Assembly (NCBI RefSeq): GCF_002217755.1
Contig: NZ_BCFL01000019.1
Location: 248,001 to 312,000, forward strand
Source: Streptomyces hyaluromycini
GTDB lineage: Bacteria > Actinomycetota > Actinomycetes > Streptomycetales > Streptomycetaceae
DNA length: 64,000 bases
Reading direction: 5' to 3'
Shown piece by piece: positions 34,635 through 39,168 of the stretch; position 1 is the stretch's first letter, and the number at the start of each line of letters is the position of its first letter. The notes beneath the pieces were generated by a model. The model was not told where the DNA came from, made no database searches, and saw only the letters and a list, made by a program, of their open reading frames with translations. The translations under genes and the position numbers were made by a program.

Positions 34635-35735
34635 CTAGTGGGCGATATCCCCATACCCCTCGATGTCCTGAGGCCTCCGTGCCCCCGGCCCCACATACTC
34701 CGCCGACGGACGCACCAACCGCCCCGTCCGCTTCTGCTCAAGAATGTGCGCCGACCACCCCGCCGTCCGCGCACACGTGAACATCGACGTGAACATGTGC
34801 GCCGGCACCTCCGCGAAGTCCAGCATGATCGCGGCCCAGAACTCCACGTTCGTGGCCAGCACCCGGTCCGGCCGCCGGTTGTGCAGCTCCTCCAACGCCG
34901 CCTTCTCCAACGCCTCCGCGATCTCGAACCGCGGCGCCCCCAGCTCCCGCGCCGTCCGCCGCAGCACCCGCGCCCGCGGGTCCTCCGCCCGGTACACCCG
35001 GTGCCCGAACCCCATCAGCCGCTCACCCCGGTCCAGCGCCCGCCTGACGTACCCCACCGCGTCCCCGGTCCGCTCGATCTCCTCGATCATCCCGAGCACC
35101 CGCGACGGCGCACCCCCGTGCAGCGGCCCCGACATGGCCCCCACCGCACCCGAGAGCGCCGCGGCGACATCCGCACCGGTCGAGGCGATCACCCGCGCCG
35201 TGAACGTGGAGGCGTTCATGCCGTGCTCGGCAGCCGAGGTCCAGTAGGCATCCACAGCCGCCACATGCTTGGGATCCGGCTCCCCACGCCACCGGATCAT
35301 GAACCGCTCCACCACCGAGTGCGCCTTGTCGATCTCCCGCTGCGGCACCATCGCCAGCCCCTGCCCGCGCGCGGACTGGGCGACGTACGACAGCGCCATG
35401 ACCGCGGCCCGCGCCAGGTCCTCCCGGGCCTGCGCGGCATCGATGTCCAGAAGCGGCTTCAGCCCCCACACCGGCGCCAGCATGGCGAGCGCCGACTGCA
35501 CGTCCACCCGGATGTCACCCGAATGGACGGGGATCGGGAACGGCTCGGCCGGCGGCAGCCCCGGATTGAACGCCCCGTCGACGAGCAGCCCCCACACGTT
35601 CCCGAACGACACGTGCCCGACCAGATCCTCGATGTCGACGCCCCGGTACCGCAGGGCGCCTCCCTCCTTGTCCGGTTCGGCGATCTCCGTCTCGAACGCG
35701 ACGACTCCTTCGAGCCCGGGTACGAAGTCCGACAT
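34635..35735 (-). CDS. Citrate synthase (small, type I-like)
   Basis: 366 residues from ATG ([11 protein letters not shown]), chosen for its GAGGAG site; a longer reading frame upstream has no ribosome site. It condenses acetyl-CoA (or propionyl-CoA) with oxaloacetate. Active-site motifs: [30 protein letters not shown] and the Asp-containing [12 protein letters not shown]. The length is that of the short citrate/2-methylcitrate synthases, so a 2-methylcitrate role cannot be excluded, but no prp genes are adjacent. Divergent from pdxH by 145 bp. Confidence 0.9.
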
Positions 35736-35880
35736 GGGGCGGCTCCTCATGGGTGTAGGCGGAGGCAACTGCACCATAACCCCGAGTGCCAGAGTTGGGG
35801 AGCCCAGCGGCACTCAGTGCCACAGCAGGTATGCGTCACATGTGCCCCGGACCCATATGTGCATACGGCAAGATGACCGC

Positions 35881-36573
35881 GTGACCGATCGTGACGCCGC
35901 CGCCTCCGACGACCCCATCCTCGACCCCGCCGCGATGCGCAAGCATTACCGGGCCGAAGGACTCGAAGAGCACGACCTGGCCGCGCACCCCATGGACCAG
36001 TTCACCCGCTGGTTCGAACAGGCCGCGCGGGCCGCCGCCGACGGCATGGTCTACGAACCCAACGCGATGGTCGTCGCCACCGCCGACGCCGAGGGCCGCC
36101 CCAGCTCACGCACGGTCCTGATGAAGCAGTACGACACCCGCGGCTTCGTCTTCTACACCAACTACGACTCCCGCAAGGCCCAGGACCTCGCCGAGAACCC
36201 GTACGTCTCGCTGGTCTTTCCGTGGCACGCCATCGCCCGCCAGGTCGTCGTCACCGGCACCGCCCGCCGCACCGGCCGCGACGAGACCGCCGCCTACTTC
36301 CGCACCCGCCCGCACGGCTCCCAGCTCGGCGCCTGGGCCAGCACCCAGTCCTCGGTCATCTACTCCCGCGCCGAACTCGACGCCTCGTACGCGGAGCTCA
36401 GCGCCCGCTACCCCGAGGGCGAACAGGTCCCGGTCCCCCCGCACTGGGGCGGCTTCCGCATCGCCCCCCAGACCGTCGAGTTCTGGCAGGGCCGCCAGAA
36501 CCGCCTCCACGACCGCCTCCGCTACGTAGCCGACCCCGACGGCACCTGGCACGTGGAACGCCTCAGCCCCTGA
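35881..36573 (+). CDS. pdxH: Pyridoxamine/pyridoxine 5'-phosphate oxidase
   Basis: 230 residues from GTG. FMN enzyme making PLP. FMN-binding and active-site segments are intact: [53 protein letters not shown], and the C-terminal [14 protein letters not shown] that closes over the substrate. The N-terminal [12 protein letters not shown] matches the family. It ends just before a hairpin-rich region that terminates the converging small transcript. Confidence 0.95.
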
Positions 36574-36752: not shown

Positions 36753-36791
36753 CTAGCCCGCAGCCACCTCGCGCGTCCGGGTTTCACTCAT
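36753..36791 (-). CDS. 12-residue peptide MSETRTREVAAG with extended Shine-Dalgarno
   Basis: ATG at 36789-36791, TAG stop. GAAAGGAGGTGATC (36798-36811, minus strand) is complementary to 14 consecutive nt of the streptomycete 16S rRNA 3' end, far more than ordinary genes in this window. AGGAGG lies 11 nt before ATG. No family known. It could be a leader peptide or a highly translated mini-gene. Confidence 0.5.
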   Translation of the reverse strand: MSETRTREVAAG

Positions 36792-36823
36792 TTACCCGAT
36801 CACCTCCTTTCGGCGTACTGGCC

Positions 36824-36852
36824 ACACTAAGAAGCTCCTGGGACGGACTCAA
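36824..36852 (-). promoter_or_regulatory. Promoter of the small transcript
   Basis: On the minus strand, TTGAGT (36847-36852), a 17-bp spacer and TAGTGT (36824-36829) match the HrdB consensus. The -35 overlaps the iscB stop codon. Predicted start near 36817. Confidence 0.6.
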
Positions 36853-38507
36853 CTGTTTTTTGGAGATGCTTGCGGAGGCGCTTCCCGCTGGGTGCTGTAG
36901 CCGTACCCGTCGCCCCGCTGCAGAAGCCGAAGATTCCAGTGAGAGACGTTCAGGCGGCCTTGCGGCGTGGTGAGGCTGTGCTGCCCCCTGGCCCGGACGG
37001 AAATTCGTCCCGTCCAGGTACCTGCCCACTTGCCCGAGGGGACGACGGCACGCACGAGGTCCCCGGTGACGTACCCGAAGTGTTGCTTGGTACGGGAGCG
37101 CCGTAGGCGCGGGAATCCGTACCGGTCGGGTGTGGTGCGTGCGTACGAGCCGCGGCCGGTGGCCTTTGCGACCAGGACCCGTTCGGGGAACCGTACGATC
37201 GCGTCTCCGCTCTCGTGGTCGAGGTGGCCGACGGACAGCGCGTCGAGGGCGTGCGTCTTACCGAGGCCGGTTCTCACGCGGTTGGCCATGGTGAGGTGGC
37301 CGGGCCAGGCATGTACGGGGCGGCCCAGGGTCTCCAACGCCTCCGCGAGCCGCGACTGTGTCGAGTTCATCGCGGCGGCGTCCCGGAGAGGTGTCCTGAG
37401 CTGCTCAAGGATCTTGGCGAGGCGGTCGGGGCGGTGGGCGAGGAAGGACTCGACGGAGCGGCTGTCCTTGGCTTTGTTGCAGGGGATGCAGGCGAGGACG
37501 AGGTTGGTGATGCGGTTCGAGCCGCCTTGGCTGCGGGGCCGTACGTGGTCGATGTTCAGGGGGACGCCGGTGGCGTCGCAGTAGGCGCAGGCGCTGTTCC
37601 ACCTGGCGTGGAGGTACGAGCGTGTGGTGCTTCCGGCGAGTGTGCCCTGGGAGTATTCCGTGCCGCGGAGACGGCGTCCCGCGCTCATGGAGTGGGTGTC
37701 GAAGGCCGTGCGTTCGAGGTGGATCTCGGTGACGGGCGCGTAGCGGCAGAGGCGTTTGGCCAGGGAGAACGTGGTGTCGACGCGGTGGCGTAGGGACGGT
37801 GGGAGCCAGCCCTGTGCTACGCCGCGGTTGTTCGATCGCGGTGCTCGGTAGCGGCAGTTTGCCGAGCGGCGTCGATGTCGGTATCCGGCGCGTTGCCCCA
37901 TGGTGTGGTGGATCTGGTCGCCGCGGTGCTGGAGTTCGATCGAGAAGAGTCCGCGTCGGACGGTGACGACGCGGCCGTCTGTGCCCGTCTCCTTCTTCTC
38001 GTCGGTGAGGGCGAGTCCGGTGCCTTTGGAGCCGGGGTCGATGCGTAGTTGCAAGCCGTCGACGGCCGATTCGGCGCGTGTGCGGTCCTTGAGCCGGATG
38101 GCGAAGGGTGTCTGACGTGCGACGACGGCTCGTCCTTTCCGGAGGAGTTCACGAGCGCGGGCCGGATGGCAGGGCATGAGCGGGTGCCCGTCCCTGGAGA
38201 GGACGAAAACTCTGCTGTCGCCGCTTCCGCCCGCGTACTCCGGTGGTTGTGTGGGAGCGTCACCGCTCCCGTTCTCTGCCGCCTGCGCCACCGTGGCGGC
38301 GCGCTTGGCGTGTCGCCGACGGGCCTTGGTGCCGGTCCCGTCGGTCTCCCCTCGCCCATGTTCCCTGCCGGTGCCCCGCGCGGTGGCGGGGTGTCCGTGA
38401 GCCGTTTCGTCCCTGCTCCCGGGGGTGTCTGCTCTCACGGGTTCCAGAGCAGGCTGCTGAGGAAGCACGGCCTGGTGGGTCTGCTCGCCTGCGGGAAACG
38501 TAGTCAT
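36849..38507 (-). CDS. iscB: IscB OMEGA RNA-guided nuclease
   Basis: 552 residues from ATG with GGAGG. IscB proteins are transposon-encoded, RNA-guided DNA nucleases ancestral to Cas9. Order: ~97-residue low-complexity basic extension; PLMP domain (FVLSRDGHPLMP, ~101-112; RKGRAVV); RuvC-I LRIDPGSKG with D157; Arg-rich bridge helix (~207-228); RuvC-II HLERTAFD with E265; HNH domain (CAYC 307-310, NIDHV with H321, CIPCN 340-344); RuvC-III THALDALS with H419 and D422; C-terminal TAM-interacting region to 552. All catalytic residues are present. No TnpA lies next to it. Inserted between pdxH and the RidA gene. Confidence 0.92.
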   Translation of the reverse strand: MTTFPAGEQTHQAVLPQQPALEPVRADTPGSRDETAHGHPATARGTGREHGRGETDGTGTKARRRHAKRAATVAQAAENGSGDAPTQPPEYAGGSGDSRVFVLSRDGHPLMPCHPARARELLRKGRAVVARQTPFAIRLKDRTRAESAVDGLQLRIDPGSKGTGLALTDEKKETGTDGRVVTVRRGLFSIELQHRGDQIHHTMGQRAGYRHRRRSANCRYRAPRSNNRGVAQGWLPPSLRHRVDTTFSLAKRLCRYAPVTEIHLERTAFDTHSMSAGRRLRGTEYSQGTLAGSTTRSYLHARWNSACAYCDATGVPLNIDHVRPRSQGGSNRITNLVLACIPCNKAKDSRSVESFLAHRPDRLAKILEQLRTPLRDAAAMNSTQSRLAEALETLGRPVHAWPGHLTMANRVRTGLGKTHALDALSVGHLDHESGDAIVRFPERVLVAKATGRGSYARTTPDRYGFPRLRRSRTKQHFGYVTGDLVRAVVPSGKWAGTWTGRISVRARGQHSLTTPQGRLNVSHWNLRLLQRGDGYGYSTQREAPPQASPKNS

Positions 38508-38539
38508 CGGGGGGCACCTCCCTGATCCTGCGATCGTGA

Positions 38540-38760
38540 TGACTGGGGCTGGTCACTCCACGGCTCCGTGGCCGGGGAGCGAGTGACCTCCCTTCCGAAG
38601 TGTGCAGATGAAGCTACTGACCCGGGCCTCCGCTGTCGCCTTGATCGAACGAGGGTCGCTCGTTTATGCGGACCCGGCTGATTTCCCGAACGTGCACGTG
38701 ATTTTCCTGCTAGGCGATGACCATCGTTCGACGTGCCCGAGCGGGCCCTCTAGCGTTCTG
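38540..38760 (-). ncRNA. Candidate omega RNA (HEARO-type) of IscB
   Basis: The 256-bp gap upstream of iscB is where HEARO/omega RNAs lie. It contains a 7-bp stem GGTCACT/AGTGACC (38551-38557/38582-38588) enclosing CCACGG-CT-CCGTGG (38558-38571), a 6-bp hairpin AACGAG/CTCGTT (38648-38664) and a longer-range GGG..CCGC/GCGG.CCC pairing. The 5' guide would lie near 38700-38760. Exact ends are not determinable by eye. Confidence 0.5.
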
Positions 38761-38763
38761 GGC

Positions 38764-39168
38764 ATGACAAAGCGGCGGGTGATTCTCAGTGGGTCCGTGT
38801 TCGAGGAGGAGATCGGGTATGCGCGGGCGGTGGTGGACGGGGACTGGGTGCATGTGTCGGGGACGACGGGGTTCGACTATGCGGCGATGACGATCTCCGA
38901 GGACGTGGTGGAGCAGGCGGAGCAGTGTCTGCGGAACATCGGGGCGGCGCTGGCGGAGGCCGGGTGTGGGTTCGGGGATGTGGTGCGGGTGCGGTATCTG
39001 CTGCCTGTGCGGGAGGACTTCGAGCCGTGCTGGCCGGTGTTGCGGCGGGTGTTCGGGGAGGTGCGGCCGGCGGCGACGATGATGGTGTGCGGGCTGTCGG
39101 ATCCGCGGATGAAGATCGAGATCGAGGTTTACGCGCGGCGGTCGGCAGAAGGGGAGGGTGACGCGTGA
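38764..39168 (+). CDS. RidA-family protein lacking the canonical arginine
   Basis: 134 residues from ATG. Trimeric RidA/YjgF fold (VSGTTGFDYAAMTISEDVVEQAEQCLRNIGAALAEAG). Canonical RidA deaminates 2-aminoacrylate-type imines using the Arg of P-A-R-S. Here the aligned stretch reads RPAATMM, Ala104 in place of that Arg, so it belongs to a divergent subgroup without proven imine deaminase activity. Its stop overlaps the GNAT gene. Confidence 0.82.
   Translation: MTKRRVILSGSVFEEEIGYARAVVDGDWVHVSGTTGFDYAAMTISEDVVEQAEQCLRNIGAALAEAGCGFGDVVRVRYLLPVREDFEPCWPVLRRVFGEVRPAATMMVCGLSDPRMKIEIEVYARRSAEGEGDA

Follow-up and report, generated by a model that had tools for sequence, protein, structure and literature searches.

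A guide RNA that matches a neighbouring gene in other Streptomyces, and not its own copy, suggests an IscB nuclease that spreads between strains without a transposase

What does an RNA-guided nuclease aim at, and how is it kept, when no transposase lies beside its gene? The question is raised by an iscB gene in a 64,000-nucleotide stretch of Streptomyces hyaluromycini (NCBI RefSeq assembly GCF_002217755.1, contig NZ_BCFL01000019.1, positions 248,001 to 312,000), hereafter the window, to which all coordinates refer. A preliminary description, made from the letters of the stretch, had read the gene as an IscB OMEGA nuclease with a likely guide-RNA region, either mobilised in trans or domesticated between pdxH and a RidA-type gene (ridA). 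We compared the locus with its counterparts across the genus and found that the guide matches alleles of the adjacent small RNA gene Ms_IGR-5 in other species, and not the copy beside it, which suggests an RNA-guided nuclease spreading between strains without a transposase.

An intact IscB gene beside Ms_IGR-5 and the alleles that its guide matches

We identified a 552-amino-acid open reading frame (ORF) at 36849-38507 on the reverse strand, with PLMP, RuvC, and HNH parts all present. It scored 383 bits against the NF040563 guided_IscB profile (cut-off 175; the alignment begins at residue 100), matched the Pfam domains RRXRR and HNH above their cut-offs, and has relatives among solved PDB structures that include OgeuIscB (7xht, E 7.8e-18), which upholds its naming as an IscB OMEGA nuclease. 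For comparison, we used 41 loci, comprising the window, 29 loci from a first search, and 11 from a second. The first search gave 38 loci, including 1 that was short (L037), 1 that was not from Streptomyces (L040), and 7 without the 5' part of iscB, which were read for their 3' flank only (L034, L036, L038, L039, L041, L042, and L043); the 30 loci of the second search comprised the window itself, 6 repeats, the 11 used, and 12 belonging to a second IscB group described below. Among the full-length orthologues, the residues that we take to be catalytic, from general knowledge of IscB and Cas9, were retained almost throughout (D157 and E265 in 36 of 36; H321, H419, and D422 in 35 of 36), in agreement with the description of the window's copy as catalytically intact. 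The ratio of nonsynonymous to synonymous substitution rates (dN/dS) had a median of 0.21 (range 0.11-0.42; 617 orthologue pairs with dS below 1.5) and, judged from these ratios, intact iscB copies are under purifying selection. IscB matches were found in 48 of 392 Streptomyces genomes (E 1e-15 or better, with the second group and fragments counted), and the window's own genome has 1 full iscB.

The preliminary description had rightly placed iscB between pdxH and the RidA-type gene; absent from it was Ms_IGR-5 (RF02471), which lies between iscB and pdxH, exceeds its gathering score of 45, and occurs as a single copy in the assembly. Excerpts of two papers report that Ms_IGR-5 was confirmed by RNA sequencing in S. 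lividans (PMC8079986) and matched a small RNA transcript in S. avermitilis (PMC8780764). In all 41 loci, iscB lies just upstream of Ms_IGR-5, with a site in a small ORF of the latter 1046-1475 nucleotides (nt) past the start of the IscB core, and the 7 further 5'-truncated loci adjoin it likewise. Ms_IGR-5 itself was present in 389 of 392 Streptomyces genomes searched, once in 386 and twice in 3.

Genomes lacking the insert, which the preliminary description had proposed for comparison, do exist. In 18 Ms_IGR-5 regions that lack an intact iscB, ridA could be located; 14 of these have 108-184 nt between ridA and the small-ORF site, compared with about 2 kb in the window, and the other 4 have 209 and 810 nt, both with iscB remnants, and 304 and 729 nt. 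We recognised one promoter-like sequence by eye in the short gaps of L191, L200, and L226, and a second one before the guide in carriers; therefore, the cassette seems to carry a promoter of its own, with Ms_IGR-5 left whole.

Each 16-nt guide was compared with two 16-nt sites of Ms_IGR-5 that precede GTGR, one in the leader and one in the small ORF. Guides were readable in 39 of the 41 loci, as L016 and L059 have lost theirs. Against the two sites of its own Ms_IGR-5, the guide had a minimum of 4 and a median of 7 mismatches, and none of the 39 came within 3. Against the best site of another strain, 8 of the 39 guides were exact, 25 were within 1 mismatch, 35 within 2, and all 39 within 3. 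The guide of the window, which finds its exact match in genome G169 (L246), has 1 mismatch to the leader of the sister locus L006 and 7 to its own, and the guide of L006 differs from the window's leader at 2 positions and from its own at 8. Further, three guides match the small-ORF site instead of the leader (L027 with 0, L030 with 1, and L057 with 0 mismatches); the surrounding promoter box and scaffold show no change. Variability reached 1.2-1.4 bits in the outer guide, compared with 1.5 in the flank and 0.28 in the five scaffold-side bases and the scaffold.

For a broader comparison we used 190 Ms_IGR-5 regions without intact iscB, 7 of them with remnants. The first 110 were the best-scoring copies, and 80 lower-scoring ones were added to reduce bias; 178 show the motif and 177 give both sites, and with 4 added by hand these made up 181 alleles, leaving 9 of the 190 regions unused. 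Over 14 positions, 36 of the 39 guides came within 2 mismatches of some allele (15 exactly), and none came that close to 225 or to 744 other ribosome-site-like sequences; shuffled guides reached the alleles this closely 1.2 times on average and at most 6 times. Nowhere in the window's genome but at the guide locus was there a match within 2 mismatches of CACTTCGGAAGGGAGGTG, and the four places at 3 mismatches were no more than a reversed control gave. Exact copies of ACTTCGGAAGGGAGGTG occurred in 5 of 384 Streptomyces genomes, and at Ms_IGR-5 in 3 of these 5 (G007, G169, and G372).

Flanking genes were usable in 35 of the 39 carriers. With each carrier's own allele replaced by a draw from its 6, 12, or 20 nearest relatives, as judged by flanks, the expected number of self matches within 3 mismatches was 7.2, 5.9, or 5.5, and 0 of 35 were observed (P 1.0e-4, 8.1e-4, and 1.5e-3, with lineages assumed to be independent). 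As far as these comparisons go, the signal of self-avoidance is an absence of near-matches and not a shift in mean distance. Of the first 104 usable regions that lack intact iscB, a sample biased to high-scoring copies, 54 have the leader [CT]ACACGAGAAGGGA, as does 1 of 39 carriers (L019, whose guide is of another type); other leader types occur among lower-scoring copies. Across Streptomyces, the Ms_IGR-5 leader and small ORF fall into few discrete allele types.

Guide register, guide RNA, and flanking genes

The register of the guide was read from the second Streptomyces IscB group (about 54-59% identity), in which three elements (L061, L062, and L064) lie at the ATGA start of one gene; ATGA or GTGA is the insertion context of HEARO elements. 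In L061, the 16 nt that precede the scaffold are identical, at 16 of 16 positions, to those before ATGA in the insert-free genome L288, which fixes the register, with the guide followed by scaffold GTCAC and the target followed by RTGR. The guides of L062 and L064 are within 2 mismatches of several others among the 30 loci read. This group resembles that of the window in the kind of RNA, in the guide register, and in that the carriers' own 16 nt before ATGA are unlike their guides (12-14 differences), and differs in that its insertion point is right at the ATGA of the gene it targets, and in the genes concerned. The target gene of the second group encodes MTAGNNGAST..., with the element's 3' end supplying a new ribosome site and the guide equal to the empty-site one. 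This second site is unoccupied in the window's genome (L294), where it has 2 mismatches to the guide of L062, and genome G257 carries four IscB copies of about 58-59% identity that are possibly still mobile.

The covariance search suggested in the preliminary description gave a full-model HEARO (RF02033) match at 38587-38340 on the reverse strand (42.2 bits, E 1.3e-6), below the Rfam gathering score of 83. Since 14 of 14 other Streptomyces loci scanned also scored below 83 (46.2 to 76.7), the Rfam cut-off misses these Streptomyces RNAs. With a HEARO match in hand and insert-free sites known, the outcome that the preliminary description had named as refuting its reading did not arise. An alignment of 36 orthologous RNAs (38587-38256) had 79 consensus pairs, 27 of them with compensatory changes on both sides; alignment A1 excludes L014 and L015 by choice and L016, L035, and L059 for damage. 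In a search for further guide RNAs in the window's genome, the next HEARO match had only E 5.5. The guide RNA had been placed in the gap at 38508-38763, and the promoter-like box, the guide, and the first helices do lie there, but the scaffold continues into the ORF. Transcription starting 6-7 nt past the TAGCTT box, as we infer it, would put the 16-nt guide at the 5' end of the RNA.

Both the ribosome-binding-like GGGAGG and the iscB ATG lie inside the second hairpin of the scaffold. From the shared ATG, the frame is open to the IscB core in 36 of 41 loci, the exceptions being L014 (ATG lost and a stop), L019 and L023 (out of frame), and L016 and L035 (region lost). The N-terminal extension of about 97 residues noted earlier is thus a real open frame, encoded by guide-RNA scaffold and spacer, and because the scaffold enters the ORF and the frame is so widely open, it probably doubles as protein and RNA scaffold. 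We rejected the view of the extension as RNA merely misread as protein on the same count of open frames. At 38499-38522, where the start codon and ribosome-binding-like sequence stand in the guide-RNA hairpin, translation and guide folding may be mutually exclusive.

Table 1. Features of the iscB and Ms_IGR-5 locus in window coordinates
Feature	Position	Strand	Basis
Ms_IGR-5 small RNA, RF02471	36594..36816	-	76.6 bits
Small ORF MSETRTREVAAG in Ms_IGR-5	36753..36791	-	Sequence
Own small-ORF site AACCCGGACGCGCGAG + GTGGCT; position matched by L027 and L030 guides (0 and 1 mismatch)	36762..36783	-	
Own leader site AGTACGCCGAAAGGAG + GTGATC; recoded copy, 7 mismatches to own guide	36798..36819	-	Sequence comparison
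Ms_IGR-5 promoter-like TTGAGT...TTAGTG; first bases overlap iscB stop	36822..36852	-	Same layout in other loci read
IscB core (PLMP, RuvC, HNH, C-terminal region)	36849..38210	-	NF040563, Pfam domains, conserved residues, PDB relatives
N-terminal extension of IscB, coded by scaffold + spacer	38211..38507	-	Same ATG, frame open in 36/41 loci; outside IscB profile
Omega RNA scaffold, HEARO RF02033; two more predicted hairpins to about 38256	38340..38587	-	Covariance match and covariation
Ribosome-binding-like GGGAGG + spacer, within second scaffold hairpin	38508..38522	-	Sequence kept in most loci
16-nt guide ACACTTCGGAAGGGAG	38588..38603	-	Register by empty-site control; exact in L246 Ms_IGR-5 leader, then GTGG
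Promoter -10-like box TAGCTT before guide RNA	38611..38616	-	TA..T box 28-30 nt before scaffold in 34/41 loci
RidA-type gene, left homology flank	38764..39168	+	PF01042

On the other side of Ms_IGR-5, the divergent pdxH-citS pair (window 34635-36573) occurs in two orientations with respect to Ms_IGR-5, being inverted in roughly half of the genomes whether or not they carry iscB. The third positions of citS shift with the inversion, G making up 63% in the window and 20% in L012. A link between iscB and this inversion was rejected, as the two orientations numbered 18 and 16 among carriers (5 undetermined) and 30 and 23 among the others (19 undetermined).

Proposed homing and competing explanations

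Our preferred reading, at a probability of roughly 0.6, is that the cassette is a free-standing, RNA-guided homing endonuclease whose own target is recoded and thus spared. The cassette would consist of promoter, guide, omega RNA, and iscB, placed beside Ms_IGR-5 without interrupting it, and the guide would recognise Ms_IGR-5 alleles of other strains at the leader or the small ORF, with GTGR as the target-adjacent motif (TAM). Where carrier DNA meets a matching allele, for example after conjugation, IscB would cut that allele. The break would then be repaired on the carrier's template, with ridA on one side and Ms_IGR-5/pdxH on the other as homologous flanks, and the cut strain would gain the cassette along with a recoded leader that cannot be cut. 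Differences between a carrier's own two sites and its guide would protect it, and guides would be exchanged as other alleles spread. In carriers, the target gene is intact and adjacent, with resistance read from mismatches only, and the iscB remnants at many loci are as expected from a cycle of invasion and decay. The wider proposal is of a chromosomal, transposase-free, RNA-guided homing drive that would move between Streptomyces species into a single orthologous site, in which non-self Ms_IGR-5 alleles are cut, the own allele is resistant, and the 16-nt guide has been repeatedly re-aimed by exchange in response to the spread of resistant alleles, with a Red Queen conflict in the leader across the genus; we hold this a little less firmly, at somewhat better than even odds.

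Several observations weigh against homing. At a threshold of 2 mismatches, the P-values for self-avoidance, which again assume independent lineages, were 0.0085, 0.029, and 0.047, and with 14-nt guides in an earlier register, 3 carriers were within 3 mismatches of their own site, where 7.3 were expected. Permutation of mean distances was not significant at 16, 12, and 10 nt (P 0.07, 0.11, and 0.15); it gave P 0.02 at 8 nt, and two leader sites (L010 and L026) were misread in it. The five guide bases beside the scaffold are nearly invariant, as in ribosome-site-like sequence, and the guides of L020, L031, L035, and L056 come no closer than 3 mismatches to any known allele. Further, distances between iscB copies follow those between flanking genes (rho 0.54; 486 pairs, codon positions 1 and 2), a correlation that fits descent as well as exchange, and both may act; in 12 of 32 cases, the closest relative by flanks also ranked in the top three by iscB. 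Four-fold-site distances gave a rho of 0.18, and the nearest carrier agreed in 10 of 32; the pdxH-citS inversion confounds these distances because it swaps G and C at third positions, and positions 1 and 2 were used instead.

Mobilisation in trans, one of the two possibilities raised in the preliminary description, would make the cassette a transposon moved by a distant TnpA, its guide equal to the insertion-site flank and its IscB retaining the element, as proposed for IS200/IS605 nucleases. IscB and TnpB do belong to such elements, and the guide of the second Streptomyces group equals an insertion-site flank. However, iscB does not resemble a hopping element mobilised in trans, which would be expected at varied sites, because all 41 loci adjoin Ms_IGR-5. 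No TnpA lies beside iscB, as had been noted, and a search of all 51 contigs of the assembly for Y1_Tnp turned up only partial matches elsewhere, one with an internal TGA and two adjoining pieces (G000 contigs C15 and C33, L003-L005), in a genome with a single full iscB. As the cassette lies upstream of the Ms_IGR-5 promoter and the target on its right is complete, the guide is not half of an interrupted target; moreover, the same site carries differing guides, three of which match another part of the gene. We consider this explanation unlikely.

We regard as similarly improbable a neutral history in which the sequence before the scaffold is an old, drifting copy of the Ms_IGR-5 leader and iscB has another role or none. 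The resemblance of leader, promoter box, and guide to the 5' end of Ms_IGR-5 would fit this view, as would the decay of several loci. Drift of this kind is at odds with guides that match several current allele types and also the small ORF, 8 of them exactly, with the constraint on intact copies, and with the absence of self matches.

Domestication, the other possibility raised, was put between pdxH and the RidA gene, and the partner that emerged is Ms_IGR-5, which IscB and its guide might control as TldR does flagellin genes. The fixed neighbourhood, the purifying selection on iscB, and the likeness of the guide to the neighbour's leader would all suit such a regulator, yet iscB is unlike one because the guide never matches its own neighbour within 3 mismatches. 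When only the 8 TAM-proximal bases were counted, own matches within 1 mismatch (9 of 39) were still rarer than matches between strains (38%), and the catalytic residues are intact, which leaves regulation very unlikely. Slightly less probable still is defence, with the nuclease acting on incoming DNA that carries Ms_IGR-5-like sequence; it shares the same cutting rule, by which a foreign allele is cut and the own one spared, but Ms_IGR-5 is single-copy and chromosomal in nearly all genomes searched, phage and plasmid collections lying outside that search. That guide and leader, which stand on the same strand about 1.8 kb apart, differ only to avoid deletion between direct repeats is the least credible explanation, as it leaves the matches to other strains' alleles and to the small ORF unexplained and 16 nt is very short for homologous deletion.

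Relation to known systems and meaning of the arrangement

Its components make this an IscB; what would be new is their arrangement. Free-standing homing endonucleases of phages (intronless homing, SegF type) are encoded beside their target, the own copy being resistant and the relative's cut, and repair copies the gene with its flank. The layout is the same as that of the homing proposed here, with specificity residing in the protein there and in a 16-nt RNA guide here, on a bacterial chromosome.

Compared with IscB/HEARO OMEGA systems (OgeuIscB 7xht; excerpts of PMC9755519), the cassette shares the family, the catalytic residues, a structured RNA on the 5' side that is headed by the guide, and a TAM 3' of the target. 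It differs in its genus-wide fixed neighbour, in guides that match alleles of other strains, and in having the iscB start codon within the RNA. The same excerpts state that few HEARO genes lie near TnpA. The nearest concept that we found is the TnpB gene drive of insertion sequences in plasmids, for which the excerpted text of PMC11870625 describes a nuclease that, as proposed for IscB here, cuts element-free copies and so favours its own. That drive involves transposition, a guide that records its own insertion site, and multicopy plasmids, whereas here there is no transposase, the neighbouring target is intact, the own allele is recoded, and guides vary from strain to strain. TldR RNA-guided repressors, as presented in part of PMC13418256, come from the same transposon world and have a guide to a specific gene; in contrast, the IscB of this cassette keeps its nuclease residues, and a search for a target in the same cell found none, either at own Ms_IGR-5 sites or, for the window's guide, genome-wide. 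In the open-licence literature searched, we recognised no description of this IscB/Ms_IGR-5 arrangement.

If the homing reading is true, homing is one answer to how IscB/HEARO genes persist without a nearby transposase, and genome sequences directly reveal the guides and targets that a Cas9 ancestor uses in nature. The locus supplies ready pairs of guide and target, immune alleles, and a predicted TAM, and it suggests why the leader and small ORF of Ms_IGR-5 fall into discrete types. The cassette would then be the RNA-guided equivalent of a homing endonuclease, with a specificity that is altered by the swap of 16 nt.
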